DNA from: an uncultured Bacteroidales bacterium
GTDB taxonomy: Bacteria > Bacteroidota > Bacteroidia > Bacteroidales > CAIXZF01
DNA: 33,260 nucleotides
Direction: 5' to 3'
NCBI GenBank assembly: GCA_903923925.1
Contig: CAIXZF010000040.1
Span: 1 to 33,260 of the forward strand
Shown one piece after another: positions 677 to 12,184 of this stretch. Positions within the stretch are counted from its first letter, which is position 1, and each line of letters starts with the position of its first letter. Under the pieces are notes generated by a model. The model saw nothing but the letters and a program-made list of their open reading frames with translations, had not been told where the DNA came from and made no database searches. The position numbers and the translations under genes are program-made.

Positions 677-1360
677 TTATAGATTTTCAAGCTTTGTAAT
701 CCACTCATTAAAATGGGGACACCTGCTCCGTAACATTGTTAATCCAATATCCCCTGCCACTAATGGACCCACTTGTGCTTTTTGTCCTTCATAATCATGT
801 AAATATTTAATAATTCTCTTGGAAGGCGCAGTTCGTTTATTCTCATTAATTTCTTCTGGCTTGATATTCCCGATGTCTTTTTTCAGTTTGTTAATACTCT
901 GCTGTTCATCAGGATACATTGTTACCAATCGGTCTGGATCAACTAACAAAAATGCTTCAAATTCATGTAATTGAACATATGGGATAAAGTGCGGATGATT
1001 TATGTTCTGAGCAATTGCAGCCTCCAAGGCAGTAATCCTTTGATAATGATCACTGATATTTCGGATTTCTGCTGTATATGGACTTTCTGCGTCTTTTGGG
1101 AAAGCATACAAATCAATAAAACTTGTGTAAAAAGTATTTGCTCTTCCTTTATCAGATTCAATCCATCTTAATACATCATTCTTAAATTTTACATATTTCA
1201 ACAACCCACCTTTGGCGGGTTTGCTGTTTACACTATCCCAACCTGTTCTGATTTTTCGAGCTGAAACAAAAATATTCAATGCACCAAAATGCGAAACCAT
1301 AATATCATTTACGAAGGTTTCTTCAGAACTTCCTTCAACAATAATATGCAAGTTCTTCAT
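677..1360 (-). CDS. DUF4276 family protein, Toprim-like partner of an ATPase
   Basis: This 227-residue protein matches the DUF4276 pattern as I know it: an N-terminal beta strand ending in VEGSSEETF (residues 8-16), a GG-x-x-KY stretch near 51-56, the acidic strand SFIDLYAFP (80-88), YVQLHEFEAFLL (128-139) and PSKRI near 179. DUF4276 is regarded as a Toprim-like fold, and E9, E13/E14 and D83 would be the candidate metal ligands. Its ATG overlaps the stop of the upstream ATPase gene as ATGA, and GGAGG sits about 8 bases ahead, so the two are translationally coupled. ATPase plus Toprim-like pairs (RloA/RloB, AbiL, PARIS-type) are known or suspected phage-defence modules, and that is the likely role here. 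Nuclease activity is inferred from the fold, not shown. Confidence 0.8.
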   Translation of the reverse strand: MKNLHIIVEGSSEETFVNDIMVSHFGALNIFVSARKIRTGWDSVNSKPAKGGLLKYVKFKNDVLRWIESDKGRANTFYTSFIDLYAFPKDAESPYTAEIRNISDHYQRITALEAAIAQNINHPHFIPYVQLHEFEAFLLVDPDRLVTMYPDEQQSINKLKKDIGNIKPEEINENKRTAPSKRIIKYLHDYEGQKAQVGPLVAGDIGLTMLRSRCPHFNEWITKLENL

Positions 1361-2460
1361 GGGCGGCCTCCTATAACATTTTTCTCCCAGATTTGCCCTG
1401 TTGAAAATTCTTCTAAGTAAGATTGAAGGTTGCCAGACTCTGGACGATGATATTCCGAATATCTTCCTTTACGGTCAATGACCACCAAATCGTCCAATTC
1501 AAAATTATTAACCAAACTTATAGATTGGGTAGCAATAAAAACCTGGCAATGTGTTGAGGCAGCTTTAATTAATCCCGCTACTGCATCAATTGCACTAGGA
1601 TGTAAGCCTAATTCGGGTTCATCTAAAAACAGTACAGCTGGTAAATCTTTCGGGTTTTGTGCCAAAAGGCTAATTAAAGCGATAGTTCTTAACATACCGT
1701 CCGATGCTTGTCCAGCGTTAAAAACTTTAGTGGTACCTTTTTCTTTCCAGCAAAGTAAAATTTGACCAAATTCGGGATAAAGTTCAAAATCATCGAAAAA
1801 TGGCAACACCAATCTTATGTATTTAATAATTCTTGTGTAGTAAGCTTTCTCAGCATTTTGAATTCGGTATAAAAAACTACCTAAGTTTTCTCCATTTTGT
1901 TTAAGCCATCTTCCATCAGATTGTGACCATTTCAATCGCATAGGTGCGGTATCACTGGTGTTGTGAAATTGGTAAACAATTAATTTTCTCAATAAATTCA
2001 ATATAATCTTTGCTGATTCATTAGTAGTCTCAGGAAGTTTTGCTTCTTCATGCCCAACACCACAACTTGACCAATCTGCTTTATTTTCAAATCTTTTTGC
2101 GGAATATCGATATTTCTCTTCTTTAAAAACAAGCTTGTCTGGTTTTGCAAACATCAGACTAAACTGATACTCGTTAAAACCTGTGCTAGTTTCTATTTCT
2201 ATATGGGCATCTATGCTTTTAGTAACGTCTGCACCGTCATGTAAAATATCATTAGCACCACCCAAGTAGGCTACATGTTCTTGCAGTTTCCCATCAGAAT
2301 TTAACATCCAACTCAAAAACTTAAAGAAGGAAATAAAATTACTTTTACCTGCGCCATTAGGGCCTAATAGAATATTAATAGGATGAGGTTCAAACCCTGA
2401 AATTTCTTTTATGCTTTTGTATCCTTTAATGGTAAAGGATTTTAGCTTTATATCTGACAT
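1357..2460 (-). CDS. AAA/SMC-like ATP-binding protein (AAA_15/AAA_21 type)
   Basis: This 367-residue protein is an ABC/SMC-type ATPase. It has an N-terminal strand and KGYKSI motif, Walker A GPNGAGKS (33-40), a degenerate signature QASDGM (251-256), Walker B VLFLDEPELGLHP (276-288) and a switch ATQS (310-313) where many relatives have ATHS. The middle third (about 60-240) is the helical insertion typical of RloA, OLD and AriA-like proteins. The start is ATG at 2458-2460. The gene is first of a two-gene operon and overlaps the DUF4276 gene by four bases. The family probably senses infection or DNA ends and controls the partner enzyme; that is inference from similar pairs. It is a full-length, intact-looking gene in a region full of broken ones. 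Confidence 0.85.
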   Translation of the reverse strand: MSDIKLKSFTIKGYKSIKEISGFEPHPINILLGPNGAGKSNFISFFKFLSWMLNSDGKLQEHVAYLGGANDILHDGADVTKSIDAHIEIETSTGFNEYQFSLMFAKPDKLVFKEEKYRYSAKRFENKADWSSCGVGHEEAKLPETTNESAKIILNLLRKLIVYQFHNTSDTAPMRLKWSQSDGRWLKQNGENLGSFLYRIQNAEKAYYTRIIKYIRLVLPFFDDFELYPEFGQILLCWKEKGTTKVFNAGQASDGMLRTIALISLLAQNPKDLPAVLFLDEPELGLHPSAIDAVAGLIKAASTHCQVFIATQSISLVNNFELDDLVVIDRKGRYSEYHRPESGNLQSYLEEFSTGQIWEKNVIGGRP

Positions 2461-7872: not shown

Positions 7873-8187
7873 CTACTGTCCCAGGTTAATTTGAAAATGT
7901 GGTAATTCTACCTGAAGCTTAACTTTTGCTTGTAAAGCACTGAAAACCCTTAATAAAGTATCAATAGTTACATTACTGGCGTTGTTTTCGATTCTTGAAA
8001 TTTGAGCTTTTTGAACACCAATAAGCTTTCCCAGTTCTTCTTGGGTTAAATTACGTTCCTGACGAGTTTGCTTAATGGCTTGTCCGATCAGGTTCATTTG
8101 AAGGTCATATTCAAACTTGTTCCGATCTGGTGTACCGATTTTCCCTATCAGTTTATCTTGAACTTCTTCCAAAGTGTGCGTTTTCAT
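7873..8187 (-). CDS. higA: HigA-type antitoxin, XRE helix-turn-helix
   Basis: This 104-residue protein has an N-terminal arm (KTHTLEEVQDKLIGKIGT) and a textbook XRE DNA-binding domain: IGQAIKQTRQERNLTQEELG (34-53) followed by the recognition helix KAQISRIENNASNVTIDTLL (60-79). The order toxin first, antitoxin second, with a gap of two bases, is the higBA arrangement. HigA would neutralise the toxin encoded at 8190-8537 and repress the shared promoter; a dyad at 8568-8580 is a candidate binding site. The gene is intact. The C-terminal tail is short and ends in NLGQ. Confidence 0.85.
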   Translation of the reverse strand: MKTHTLEEVQDKLIGKIGTPDRNKFEYDLQMNLIGQAIKQTRQERNLTQEELGKLIGVQKAQISRIENNASNVTIDTLLRVFSALQAKVKLQVELPHFQINLGQ

Positions 8188-8189
8188 TT

Positions 8190-8537
8190 CTATTTATTAT
8201 TTACCTGGTCAGCAAAATAGTTTGTTCGCAGTTGTTTAGCCCTATGAAATTCCTTTTCTGGTAGTTTCCTGGATTTTTTAATAAACCCATGAGTCGAAAT
8301 AACCAGAGTGTTTTCTGTATCTGTTTTGTCCCAAAAAGCAAGTAACCGATATTGTAATCCTTGATATAGTGTACGGATTTCCCAAATTTCCTCTTTAAGC
8401 TTTTTGAAAATTTCAGGGTCTTGTTCTATCTGTACTTTACGAATGTTGAACAAAATCTTTTCGTAGTGTTTTTTATCAAGGCTGCTTAGAAATTCAAAAG
8501 CCTCATCTAAAAATATAATGTTAAAAAGGTTATCCAT
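8190..8537 (-). CDS. higB: HigB/RelE-type toxin (Gp49-like)
   Basis: This 115-residue protein is a phage-derived Gp49-like/HigB toxin. It starts FNIIFLDEAFEFLSSLDKKHYEKILFNIRKV, then the FKKLKEEIWEIRTLYQGLQYRLLAFWD core and LVISTHGFIKKSRKLPEKEFHRAKQ, with the conserved IWEIRT, YRLLAFW and HGF-K-K motifs. Proteins of this family are ribosome-dependent mRNA interferases. The gene begins with ATG at 8535-8537, 20 bases after a perfect TATCTTTG promoter box, and is followed after two bases by the antitoxin. All core motifs are present, so the locus is likely functional. Confidence 0.85.
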   Translation of the reverse strand: MDNLFNIIFLDEAFEFLSSLDKKHYEKILFNIRKVQIEQDPEIFKKLKEEIWEIRTLYQGLQYRLLAFWDKTDTENTLVISTHGFIKKSRKLPEKEFHRAKQLRTNYFADQVNNK

Positions 8538-9295: not shown

Positions 9296-9892
9296 CTAAG
9301 TTCTGGCGAACTGAATTAATGGCTGGACGTTCCCTCTATCAGCCTCATAAATTGCATTAAGGTATTGTTTTCGAATATCACTTGTTTTGGAAAGGTTTGT
9401 TCTCCCCCAGGTAAAAACGGGTTTATGAAATATATTTGAGGCTATGATATCAGCCATTAGCCTGGAATGTCGACCATTACCATTTGGGAAAACATGTATT
9501 TTAACTATTCTATGGCTGAACTGAATAGCAATTTCATCTGGATCAAAGGTTTGATTGTCAATCCAATATTTGCAATCATCAATAAGTGTCCTTAATTCAA
9601 CCGTGATCATGAATTTGTCGACCCCAATGTTTTTGTTTGTTTTTCTGATCATACCCGCCCAATTCCAGACTTCGCCGAACATTTTTTTGTGCAGTAGCAG
9701 GATAAAATCTACCGACAGGATTTCCTCTTGCTTAAATGTGTTTTTCAAAGTCCAATCATAAGCCTGCTGAATGTTTGCTTGTTCAAACTCATCAAGTTCT
9801 TCTCTTGTCGAAACTGTTTTAACCCGCAGACCAACTTTTTCATCTTCATCAATAGGGGTCTGACCATCAATATAATCCAAATTTAGTCCCAT
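9296..9892 (-). CDS. Fic-domain protein, mobile mystery protein B
   Basis: This 198-residue protein has the Fic signature HVFPNGNGRHSR (133-144) with the catalytic histidine H133, preceded by the family motif FGEVWNWAGMIRKTNKNIG (72-90), which carries the flap region. It fits the group called mobile mystery protein B, the usual partner of the XRE-type mobile mystery protein A encoded directly upstream. In the canonical HxFx(D/E)GNGRxxR motif the acidic metal ligand is replaced by Asn137, and Pro after the His by Val. I believe Asn is usual in this family. The enzyme would transfer AMP or another nucleotide moiety to a target protein. The start overlaps the upstream gene by ten bases, giving tight coupling. 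Likely the toxin half of a toxin-antitoxin-like pair. Confidence 0.85.
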   Translation of the reverse strand: MGLNLDYIDGQTPIDEDEKVGLRVKTVSTREELDEFEQANIQQAYDWTLKNTFKQEEILSVDFILLLHKKMFGEVWNWAGMIRKTNKNIGVDKFMITVELRTLIDDCKYWIDNQTFDPDEIAIQFSHRIVKIHVFPNGNGRHSRLMADIIASNIFHKPVFTWGRTNLSKTSDIRKQYLNAIYEADRGNVQPLIQFART

Positions 9893-10341
9893 AAATATTT
9901 TGGCATAACTTGTTTCAACTCAACAGCTTTTTCTTGTATTGCTTTTTGAATACGGGATGAATTATTTTCCTGGTCTTCGAGTTTCATTGACTGCGAAGTA
10001 CGACTAACAATATCTTTAGCCAATTCAAAAGCCCGTTGTTCTATAAGTTCTTCCAAGCTCCCATGTTTAGGAATAAAACCATAAACGAATTTCATTTCCA
10101 ATGATTGACCGAATTGTTTTAAAACGTTTAGGGAAATTGTGCCATTTTTTTCCCTATCCTCCATATCTTTAACGCTCTGTGGTGTAATTTTCATTTTATT
10201 ACCAAGTTGTCGGAGTGACATTCCTAAAGCTTGTCTGATGGCATAAATCCAGCCTGACGGTGGTATAGTTAAGTCATCGATTTTTTTAAGGATTACCAGC
10301 TTACGATCAATTTGCTCCAGAATTAAAGTTTGCTTTTTCAT
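9883..10341 (-). CDS. XRE regulator, mobile mystery protein A
   Basis: This 152-residue protein begins MKKQTLILEQIDRKLVILKK and has a helix-turn-helix in WIYAIRQALGMSLRQLGNKMKITPQSVKDMEDRE (about 32-65), followed by the family pattern ISLNVLKQFGQSLEMKFVYGFIPK (69-92). A C-terminal helical region of about 55 residues, rich in Gln/Glu/Lys, may contact the Fic protein. It matches mobile mystery protein A, found beside the Fic partner on mobile elements. The ATG at 10339-10341 is one base from a palindromic operator-like box (10343-10354). Two more such boxes follow at 33-bp steps, so autorepression is very likely. Confidence 0.85.
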   Translation of the reverse strand: MKKQTLILEQIDRKLVILKKIDDLTIPPSGWIYAIRQALGMSLRQLGNKMKITPQSVKDMEDREKNGTISLNVLKQFGQSLEMKFVYGFIPKHGSLEELIEQRAFELAKDIVSRTSQSMKLEDQENNSSRIQKAIQEKAVELKQVMPKYLWD

Positions 10342-10342
10342 A

Positions 10343-10424
10343 ATACTATAGTATTAAAACGTTGGCGCAAATATATGACTATAGTATTAAATACAAAAAT
10401 GTATTTTAAGTCTATAGTGTTAAA
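10343..10424 (-). promoter_or_regulatory. promoter with three operator boxes at 33-bp spacing
   Basis: CTATAG occurs at 10346-10351, 10379-10384 and 10412-10417, exactly 33 bp apart. On the plus strand each is followed by T(A/G)TTAAA. The first is inside a perfect palindrome ATACTATAGTAT (10343-10354). On the minus strand the promoter is TTTG (10394-10397), 18 bases, TATATTTG (10368-10375). The middle box therefore lies between -33 and -7, one box lies upstream and one at the start codon. Helical phasing of three turns suggests cooperative binding by the XRE protein at 9883-10341. Confidence 0.75.
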
Positions 10425-10503: not shown

Positions 10504-11130
10504 TTAGGTTATTAAAGTTGATAAGATTGTTGCTACATCAATATTATCCTGGATCTTCCATGTTGAATAATGATGACCGTCTTTTGGTAAAGATGGTTCA
10601 AGAGGGGTATAGCCATCCCGTATGGTAGATAGCAGGTCCTTCCTGAAGTCGCTAAACAAATCAAGGTGTTGTAGCAAATATCCAAGCCTCTTGTTTACTA
10701 CCTGTACGTTGAACTGTTCCAGATAGGTGTAAAGTTTATCAGTACTGATAATGTTCCTGCTTTTGTATATGGCTTTTATTATTTCCGATATTCCGCCTGC
10801 GTATCGGGGGATAAACAAGGAATCAATAATGGTTTTTTCGAGATCAGAGTAGCCGACTTTATTAAAATCATCTATCCATTGATTTTTAAAACCAAAAAAG
10901 TGATCCTTGCTTAGTGTAACAAATTCGAATGTGGCTTGACCGATTACATGGCGTTTTGGAAGTATCCTTTCAAAAGATACGACATACTCTATCATGGATG
11001 GTTGGGTTATTAATCCATGTAAAATGCAAGGAACCATGGCAAAGCTCAAAAAAATCGTACATCTAAGCATGCACATATCAGACTTCGTCAATTCTGTAAA
11101 CGGGTTATATTTATCAAGAAATCTCTTCAT
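10504..11130 (-). CDS. AbiEi-type antitoxin, N-terminal HTH missing
   Basis: This 208-residue protein resembles type IV antitoxins of the AbiEi family: NPFTELTKSDMCMLR (9-23), a HGLITQPSMIEYVVS segment, KRHVIGQATFEFVTLSKDHFFGF (59-81), the hallmark SDLEKTIIDSLFIPRYAGGISE (95-116) and KRLGYLLQHL (147-156). Family members normally carry an N-terminal winged helix of 60-80 residues, which this frame lacks. The segment CTIFLSFAMVPCIL looks corrupted compared with what I expect there. The ATG overlaps the stop of a start-less frame (11127-11225). No AbiEii nucleotidyltransferase toxin lies downstream; the next gene on this strand is mobile mystery protein A. Probably an orphaned, possibly decaying antitoxin. 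Confidence 0.65.
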   Translation of the reverse strand: MKRFLDKYNPFTELTKSDMCMLRCTIFLSFAMVPCILHGLITQPSMIEYVVSFERILPKRHVIGQATFEFVTLSKDHFFGFKNQWIDDFNKVGYSDLEKTIIDSLFIPRYAGGISEIIKAIYKSRNIISTDKLYTYLEQFNVQVVNKRLGYLLQHLDLFSDFRKDLLSTIRDGYTPLEPSLPKDGHHYSTWKIQDNIDVATILSTLIT

Positions 11131-11362: not shown

Positions 11363-11403
11363 CTATAATACGGCAGCAAAACTTATTTGCTGCCGTATTA
11401 TAG
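11363..11403. repeat. 18-bp perfect inverted repeat, likely operator
   Basis: CTATAATACGGCAGCAAA (11363-11380) is followed by ACTTA and its exact reverse complement (11386-11403). The right arm contains the -33 box of the DUF6577-like gene. Thirty-six paired bases with a five-base centre cannot be chance. As there is no T-run and it lies upstream of a gene, I take it as an operator rather than a terminator. AbiE-type antitoxins are known to repress through inverted repeats in their promoter. Confidence 0.8.
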
Positions 11404-11417
11404 TTTTCGTATATTTG
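11386..11417 (+). promoter_or_regulatory. promoter of the DUF6577-like gene
   Basis: TTTG (11386-11389), a 20-base spacer and TATATTTG (11410-11417) give a perfect Bacteroidota promoter. Transcription should start near 11424. The -33 box lies inside the right arm of the inverted repeat, so a bound repressor would block it. Confidence 0.65.
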
Positions 11418-12184
11418 CATCGATAAAAAATATAGTCATCGCAGATTCTAAACTCAATATCGACAACTTCCAATCTTTTTTCCAGGGTAAAGGCATCTTT
11501 GGGTCTAAGGATATTTTGCAGTTTTATCAGGAATCAGAACCAGATATTAAACAAACTACTTTAAACTGGAGGGTGTACAATTTGGTACAGGCCGGTATCA
11601 TGAGTCGTGTAAGCAGAGGTAAATTCTCAATTGGCTACGGTAAAAACTTCATCCCGGAAATATCACCAAGGATCAAAACTCTTTATAAACGAATTCACAT
11701 GCAATTCCCATACCTTCAACTTTGTGTCTGGAATACTTCCGTTTTCAATGAGTTTATGCTTCATCAGCCGGGAAGGTTTTATACCCTTATAGAAGTTGAA
11801 AAAGATGCTTTGGAATCTGTTTTTTACTTCCTTAAAGAGAAATATAAAAATGTATTTATTGATCCTTCGGCTGATACTCTTGCCCGCTATGCTTCTGGGG
11901 AACAGGAAACCATAATTGTAAAATCATTAGTTTCAGAGGCTCCTGTTCAGAAGGTAGATGGAGTAGTTACTGTTACTCTTGAAAAAATGTTAGTAGACAT
12001 CTTCAGTGACGATAAAATTTTTACAGCACAGCAAGGACAGGAAATGCAAATTATCTTTACAGAATCTATAAATAAATACACTATTCAGGAAAGCCGGATA
12101 CTTCGCTATGCTGACCGCAAGCGCAGGAAGGAGGCTTTCAGTAAATATCTGAAACAACAACCTAGTTTTCAGCATATCCAGTAG
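11387..12184 (+). CDS. DUF6577-like protein, type IV antitoxin-like, orphan
   Basis: The open frame gives 265 residues. The recognisable protein begins about residue 22 with KLNIDNFQSFF and continues with GKGIFGSKDILQFYQE, TLNWRVYNLVQAGIMSRVSRGKFS (a winged-helix region), FPYLQLCVWNTSVFNEFMLHQPGRFYTLIEVEK, VFYFLKEKYKNVFIDPS, then VTLEKMLVDIFSDD and ILRYADRKRRKEAF. This is the DUF6577 pattern, AbiEi-related antitoxin-like proteins of Bacteroidota that normally precede a nucleotidyltransferase toxin. None is present here; the next gene is convergent. The only canonical upstream start, TTG 11387, lies in the -33 region of the promoter, so it is unlikely to be used. No ATG, GTG or TTG follows before residue 72. 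ATA at 11432 may mark a lost ATG. Confidence 0.7.
   Translation: MLPYYSFRIFASIKNIVIADSKLNIDNFQSFFQGKGIFGSKDILQFYQESEPDIKQTTLNWRVYNLVQAGIMSRVSRGKFSIGYGKNFIPEISPRIKTLYKRIHMQFPYLQLCVWNTSVFNEFMLHQPGRFYTLIEVEKDALESVFYFLKEKYKNVFIDPSADTLARYASGEQETIIVKSLVSEAPVQKVDGVVTVTLEKMLVDIFSDDKIFTAQQGQEMQIIFTESINKYTIQESRILRYADRKRRKEAFSKYLKQQPSFQHIQ

Follow-up and report, generated by a model that had tools for sequence, protein, structure and literature searches.

Palindromic operator-like boxes at a conserved 32–33-bp spacing upstream of the mobile mystery A–B (Fic) operon

Described systems and the locus under study

Toxin–antitoxin operons that regulate themselves through several operators are already known, as far as the accessible parts of the literature go: PaaR2, with arrays of the PaaR2/lambda CI type, regulates a toxin–antitoxin locus (PMC8630535), and the HipA1 and HipA2 promoters of Caulobacter have three operator sites (PMC8545095). 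Xre–Fic pairing as such is also known, since the pairing list in part of a toxin–antitoxin survey includes 22 pairs of Fic_Doc beside xre (PMC2701414). Furthermore, a TIGR02612-like neighbour of Fic has been called an antitoxin from its context, according to the available portion of PMC3936711. The locus considered here lies in a stretch of 33,260 nucleotides of an uncultured Bacteroidales bacterium (assembly GCA_903923925.1, contig CAIXZF010000040.1), hereafter the window, meaning the whole stretch. In it, three palindromic boxes precede an operon that encodes first mobile mystery protein A (mmA), with a helix-turn-helix (HTH), and then mobile mystery protein B (mmB), a Fic protein. Judging from sequence comparisons, the three boxes very likely act as operators through which mmA represses its own mmA–mmB operon, with a fixed ruler of roughly three helical turns.

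The closest described systems share some of these traits. HipB–HipA is like the locus in having the gene of an Xre-fold antitoxin before the toxin gene and several palindromic operators in its own promoter, and a Foldseek search with the mmA model ranked HipB–O1–O2 first, though weakly (E 0.048, none at 0.001 or below). However, its partner is a kinase, not Fic, and its operator spacings are 28, 39 and 28 base pairs (bp) in E. coli and mostly 40–41 bp in Bacteroidota, versus 32–33 bp for mmA. CccR of Yersinia pseudotuberculosis, which has HTH and Fic in one chain, represses its own promoter via palindromic boxes near −35/−10, but the available text describes one bipartite site with two 10-bp half-sites 26 bp apart and a class II Fic that contains its inhibitory helix, all in a single polypeptide (PMC9755527). 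PaaR2 differs in acting at lambda-like phage promoters within a three-gene system, and the accessible part of its description mentions no Fic protein (PMC8630535). In the open-licence literature, to the extent available, nothing was found that describes operators of mobile mystery genes. On the literature so found, a family-wide ruler of 32–33 bp with a box sequence that follows the recognition helix appears to be a new form of a known type of regulation.

The array over the predicted mmA promoter and its spacing in the family

The features of the locus, with positions in the window, are the following.

10341–10356, no strand assigned: proximal operator box, TAATACTATAGTATTA, a perfect palindrome (8 of 8 pairs), putative; read on the minus strand, it ends with the A of the mmA start codon
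10374–10389, no strand assigned: middle operator box, putative, palindromic in 6 of 8 pairs, inside the promoter spacer
10407–10422, no strand assigned: distal operator box, putative, palindromic in 6 of 8 pairs, upstream of the −33 element
10368–10375, minus strand: predicted −7 element of Bacteroidota type, TATATTTG; in 19 of 40 loci a TTTG lies at this offset from the middle dyad
10394–10397, minus strand: predicted −33 element, TTTG; 14 of 40 loci have TTTG at offset −18
9883–10341, minus strand: mmA, predicted HTH repressor and putative antitoxin (TIGR02612, 133.2 bits, cut-off 122.6; AlphaFold predicted local distance difference test score, pLDDT, 90.2)
9296–9892, minus strand: mmB, Fic protein (TIGR02613, 236.4 bits, cut-off 124.4), overlapping mmA by 10 bp

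A sequence-only reading of the window had placed CTATAG at 10346, 10379 and 10412, in 33-bp steps, and these coordinates were confirmed. Each core is the centre of a 16-bp palindrome upstream of mmA, with palindrome spacings of 33 and 33 bp. The counts of CTATAG were rejected as evidence by themselves, the hexamer being present seven times in the AT-rich window against 5.2 expected, which is neither rare nor an enrichment. The 13-mer CTATAGTRTTAAA, searched on both strands, matched the window at 10346, 10379 and 10412 only (0.01 expected); its three copies were found in none of 100 shuffles of the window, and three CTATAG within 120 bp of plus strand in none of 400 further shuffles. The boxes are 81–88% identical to one another, the spacers 24%.

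TTTG and TATATTTG are taken by us to be the two elements of a Bacteroidota promoter. On the minus strand they are 18 bp apart, and the middle box lies between them, as that reading had also held, overlapping TATATTTG by 2 bp. The palindromic, operator-like boxes overlap the predicted promoter of the mmA–mmB operon, as operators of an autoregulated type II toxin–antitoxin operon do. The same layout was seen among 19 Bacteroidota arrays ending 7 bp before the ATG: 13 had TTTG at 4–15 bp after the middle dyad, 16 had TTG about 11–22 bp before it, and 11 had both promoter elements around the middle box. A greater strength of the proximal box across the family was considered and rejected, the mean numbers of palindromic pairs being 5.9, 5.9 and 6.0 of 8 in 28 loci.

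The conservation of the array was analyzed in two sets of loci. The Bacteroidota set had 69, of which two without an mmA match (L002, a weak Xre match, and L069, a fragment) were set aside, leaving 67, the window's own included; the Pseudomonadota set had 86 (L071–L156), by their titles one Vibrio and otherwise Alphaproteobacteria. From these 153, five truncated loci (L051, L063, L066, L067 and L150) were excluded, and the remaining 148 gave 89 non-redundant loci at 85% identity. The upstream test was run on 88 of them (54 Bacteroidota and 34 Pseudomonadota), the sequence of L009 being too short. Three loci with a disturbed mmA reading (L131, L137 and L146) were included in the free-spacing search and not in the protein alignment, which has 86 rows. 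The free-spacing search looked for three similar palindromic boxes with any spacings from 20 to 50 bp.

In both sets the top lag in the autocorrelation of the upstream stretches was 33 bp, followed by 66 and 32. The free-spacing search placed both spacings at 31–34 bp in 69 of 88 loci (40/54 Bacteroidota, 29/34 Pseudomonadota), versus 0/88 dinucleotide-shuffled upstreams and 0/89 random stretches from these loci. In 43/54 Bacteroidota and 29/34 Pseudomonadota the best triple scored above every one of 19 shuffles made from its own upstream sequence, versus 4/89 random stretches. Taken singly, the spacings were exactly 33 bp in 60 of 108 cases in Bacteroidota and 35 of 68 in Pseudomonadota, and 32 bp in 25 and 23, respectively. 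The spacing is conserved across the two phyla, and the box sequence is not. Accordingly, of the proposal that the boxes would be kept upstream of homologues, the architecture stands and the exact sequence does not: the closest homologues (70–73% identical; L015, L021 and L022) have boxes of an AAGG type, e.g., TAAGGCTATAGCATTA, and other homologues have TCAGTCTATAGACTGA, TTGTTATAAATATCAA, ATGCTATAAATAGCAT and ACAATTTATAAATTGT, all spaced 32–33 bp. The view of these sites as operator-like boxes of the mmA–Fic operon is supported.

It is worth considering the geometry of the array. The 33-bp steps are as had been described, but the claim of exactly three turns with all sites on one face of the DNA was too strict, since 33 bp amount to 3.14 turns at 10.5 bp per turn. 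Neighbouring sites would be about 51 degrees apart and the outer two about 103, i.e., roughly on one face; a spacing of 32 bp is off phase by 17 degrees. Nothing was seen in favour of the DNA looping that had also been proposed, which is left unsupported.

When the arrays were extended in steps of 31–34 bp, 29 of 39 in Bacteroidota had three boxes and 10 had four, while in Pseudomonadota (n = 19) five had three, twelve had four and two had five. This extension and one listing of box sequences used limited steps (31–34 and 30–35 bp); the unbiased spacings are those of the free-spacing searches. These extra boxes bear on an alternative that we regard as unlikely though worth weighing, namely that each site is bound on its own, a period of 33 bp coming from steric packing or promoter layout with no cooperative contact. 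The functional promoter positions occupied by the middle and proximal boxes are in its favour, and so is the variation of the spacing from 32 to 33 bp, a phase change of 34 degrees. However, fourth and fifth boxes hold the period, in a search limited to 31–34-bp steps, upstream of the promoter, where it should impose nothing; promoter geometry alone is therefore unlikely to set the spacing. As for steric packing, 16-bp boxes with gaps of 16–17 bp would permit other spacings. The constraint probably lies in the bound complexes themselves.

Box sequence, recognition helix and proposed repression

The relation of box sequence to mmA sequence was studied in 58 loci with an array score of at least 60, L141 and L036 being excluded for a doubtful box register. 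Pairwise box distances were compared with the distances in each 11-residue window of mmA, corrected for the divergence of the remaining protein. Permutations were made within phylum; the full tree was not retained, so that shared ancestry is not fully removed. The AlphaFold model of mmA shows helices 43–50 and 54–66, which form the HTH, and the best-scoring window falls on the second of them.

10150–10182, minus strand: mmA residues 54–64, PQSVKDMEDRE, predicted recognition helix (helix 54–66 of the model), covariation rank 1 of 142

This window had a partial r of 0.529, a value reached by 0 of 999 within-phylum permutations. It kept the first rank when the five most divergent loci were removed, when only Bacteroidota (39 loci) were used and when divergent members were also removed from these (35), and the result also held without register shifts. 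Because the box sequence covaries with its recognition helix, mmA, the binder proposed in the earlier reading, is the most likely binder of the boxes. That the array is bound by some other regulator, from the host or the element, seems very improbable. The window does contain a second HTH gene, HigA-like, at 7873–8187, and the assignment to mmA comes from comparing sequences, but the box sequence follows the mmA recognition helix across lineages, and the arrays accompany mmA in two phyla.

The same free-spacing search was applied to HipB-type operons of Bacteroidota, 29 of 30 loci (L167–L196) being used with the most upstream ATG. None of the 29 had both spacings at 31–34 bp. Their spacings were 41 bp in 22 of 58 cases and 40 bp in 16, and in a search for pairs 18 of 29 loci had a spacing of 40 or 41 bp, with boxes of the form TATACCC...GGGTATA. 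HipB-type operons thus show a period of their own, so the search also detects operator arrays outside the mmA family, and the 32–33-bp period is not general to Xre operons. Each family of Xre antitoxins may have an operator period of its own, 32–33 bp for mmA and 40–41 bp for the HipB type of Bacteroidota. In hipBA of E. coli K-12, with four sites of the form TATCC-N8-GGATA, presumably the consensus of its operator sites, the 28/39/28 period is not uniform. In the HigBA-like operon of the window, the search for an array gave nothing above shuffles.

Within its own genome, the control by mmA through the boxes appears, from sequence, to be local, since the perfect box was found here only and near-matches were not above control: boxes with up to three mismatches numbered 64, versus 86 for a reversed control pattern, with no sign of a regulon.

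Concerning how the array would work, direct binding, repression, dimers, cooperativity (this from the fixed spacing) and the part played by mmB are what we infer. A dimer of mmA would sit on each palindrome. On the middle box it would occlude the spacer between the −33 and −7 elements and block RNA polymerase; on the proximal box it would cover the leader of the transcript as far as the start codon; the distal site, plus the fourth and fifth in some relatives, would extend the array upstream. Adjacent repressor complexes would touch, either mmA to mmA or via mmB as corepressor, which would hold the 32–33-bp spacing and make repression cooperative and hence switch-like. A drop in mmA, e.g., by dilution or proteolysis, would lift repression, and the pair would be resynthesised. 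Contact between neighbours would be the simplest cause of the period.

Some observations weigh against this interpretation. In 19 of 88 loci the free search did not find both spacings at 31–34 bp, although some of these may have misplaced start codons or displaced arrays. At 33 bp, neighbours are left with a twist of 51 degrees. In Pseudomonadota alone (18 loci with little box variety), residues 54–64 ranked 16th of 142, and in the whole set column 116, outside the HTH, scored as high as helix residue 56, which is unexplained. The pattern CTATAG-N27-CTATAG matched its own genome twice, both times here, but the reversed control also matched twice, so this is a weak test. In the PDB, the sequence relatives of mmA were HTH proteins, matched only weakly (best 2.8e-4), with no other solved relative found. 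Finally, over the 58 loci, spacer identity within a locus was 42% (better of two alignments), above the 30% expected from composition, and some arrays may, from their sequences, have grown by duplication.

This last point is the one in favour of a further alternative, that a 33-bp unit was duplicated in tandem and the boxes, a by-product of this, do not regulate anything, which we consider the least probable of all. The boxes stay palindromic and alike while the spacers diverge, both in the window and in the family, where box identity within a locus was 74%. Moreover, a period shared by two phyla despite unlike box sequences suggests selection, and HipB-type operons have a different period. 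Repression by mmA through the array is the reading that we prefer.

An observation on a locus outside the Pseudomonadota set, tested alone, may be added. In a Xanthobacter mmA (L070), a weak array with spacings of 33 and 34 bp lies at 1144–1201, inside the annotated gene start. It appears only when the search is run from an internal start (score 44, versus at most 40 in 19 shuffles), and the annotated mmA start may be too far upstream.

Candidate antitoxin role, genomic setting and meaning

In class I Fic pairs (VbhT–VbhA, EcFicT–EcFicA and Fic-1–AntF) the inhibitory motif is missing from the toxin and present in the partner, whose glutamate sits in the active site of Fic. The Fic inhibitory helix has the motif [S/T]xxxE[G/N], and its glutamate pairs with an arginine of the Fic motif, according to the part available of PMC5033356. 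Two features of the window are relevant here.

9461–9496, minus strand: Fic motif of mmB, HVFPNGNGRHSR (HxFxx[GAS]NGRxxR in 79 of 86 mmB matches)
9976–9990, minus strand: mmA residues 118–122, SMKLE, a [S/T]xxxE motif like that of the Fic inhibitory helix (S/T in 77/86, E122 in 85/86)

The second belongs to a near-invariant run of mmA outside the HTH, [S/T]118-M-x-L-E122-x-Q124 (S/T 77, M 84, L 84, E 85 and Q 84, of 86; N at position 118 in 8), and the AlphaFold model places [S/T]xxxE at the end of a long helix, 96–121. At position 123 most sequences have D or A and only 14 of 86 have N or G, so that the final G/N is lacking in 72; the full [S/T]xxxE[G/N] starting at residues 111–120 was found in 9 of 89.

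Like class I toxins, mmB has no conserved [ST]xxxE[GN], with six scattered matches in 82 sequences. An N-terminal inhibitory helix of its own was considered and rejected, T28xxxE32 being inconstant (E in 51 and D in 29 of 82). The best fold matches of the mmB model were class I toxins from crystal structures that include the antitoxin: VbhT (Z 18.0; root-mean-square deviation 2.4, 169 aligned), Fic-1 (17.6) and EcFicT (17.1), with FICD nearly tied at 17.0. FICD, C. difficile Fic and NmFic align to the mmB model only outside their inhibitory stretches: FICD from 250, its motif lying, we assume, near 230–235; C. difficile Fic from 51 (S31/E35 by title); and NmFic to 163 (S182/E186 by title). The alignment of BT_2513 (3cuc) reaches further upstream, from residue 8 of the mmB model. 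On these models, mmB resembles class I Fic toxins.

The locus is also like class I pairs in having the gene of the HTH protein directly upstream and a near-invariant [S/T]xxxE in its product; it differs in that mmA is a 152-residue HTH protein with position 123 mostly D/A, not G/N. The term "DNA-binding" does not occur in the main texts on EcFicA and AntF. A Pfam scan of 84 mmA members gave no known antitoxin domain outside the HTH among the 25 families listed, HTH families leading (HTH_3 in 83); ECH_1 matched 19 members weakly. VIA-align with mmA residues 25–87 gave a best Z of 8.3, in the HTH region only.

The motif in mmA, the lack of it in mmB and the class I fold matches together fit a class I pair whose antitoxin is also a repressor, and mmA may be both. 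As a tentative and rather speculative extension, which we hold to be somewhat doubtful, mmA would be a single-chain repressor and class I-type Fic antitoxin that plugs the active site of mmB with its [S/T]xxxE helix end. A bridging mmA–mmB complex between operators would set the ruler, occupancy would report the toxin:antitoxin ratio, and Xre antitoxin families might each keep their own period.

The two genes are closely associated. Of 89 non-redundant mmA loci, 86 also contained mmB, and the genes overlapped by 10 bp in 45 and by 4 bp in 26 of the 82 loci with both placed, the window included. Within the window's order, mmA was found in 24 of 393 genomes (E 1e-10) and mmB in 23 (E 1e-20), all within the 24. 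As plasmid DNA, no relatives were found; 238 plasmid records encode a protein relative, all less than 60% identical. Two queries of viral contigs gave no encoded relative. mmB also matches PDC-S04, a candidate defence family of PADLOC (E 4e-22). In Mesorhizobium loti, mmB (mll2066) has a value of 4.02 in a heat-shock table, in the accessible part of PMC3989490.

Just upstream of the array there are two AbiEi-like genes, at 10504–11130 (minus strand) and 11387–12184 (plus strand), with PADLOC E values of 2e-49 and 5e-88 (four proteins scanned), and a HigBA-like pair lies at 7873–8537. With these genes, the region looks like a defence island. At 677–2460 (minus strand), an ATPase-like gene is followed by a smaller one, likely an operon as judged by eye from translations of the open reading frames.

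As to what the finding means, two genes called "mobile mystery" for want of a function now have a regulatory logic that can be tested. The M. loti value, if it reflects induction, would fit derepression through loss of mmA. The array may be used to predict the target sequence of each member, perhaps to correct start codons, as in the Xanthobacter locus, and to design half-turn spacing tests, and the way in which operators vary with the recognition helix is a natural code from which orthogonal repressors could be built. Should the inhibitory motif prove real, mmA would be an antitoxin to a Fic protein and a transcriptional regulator as well.
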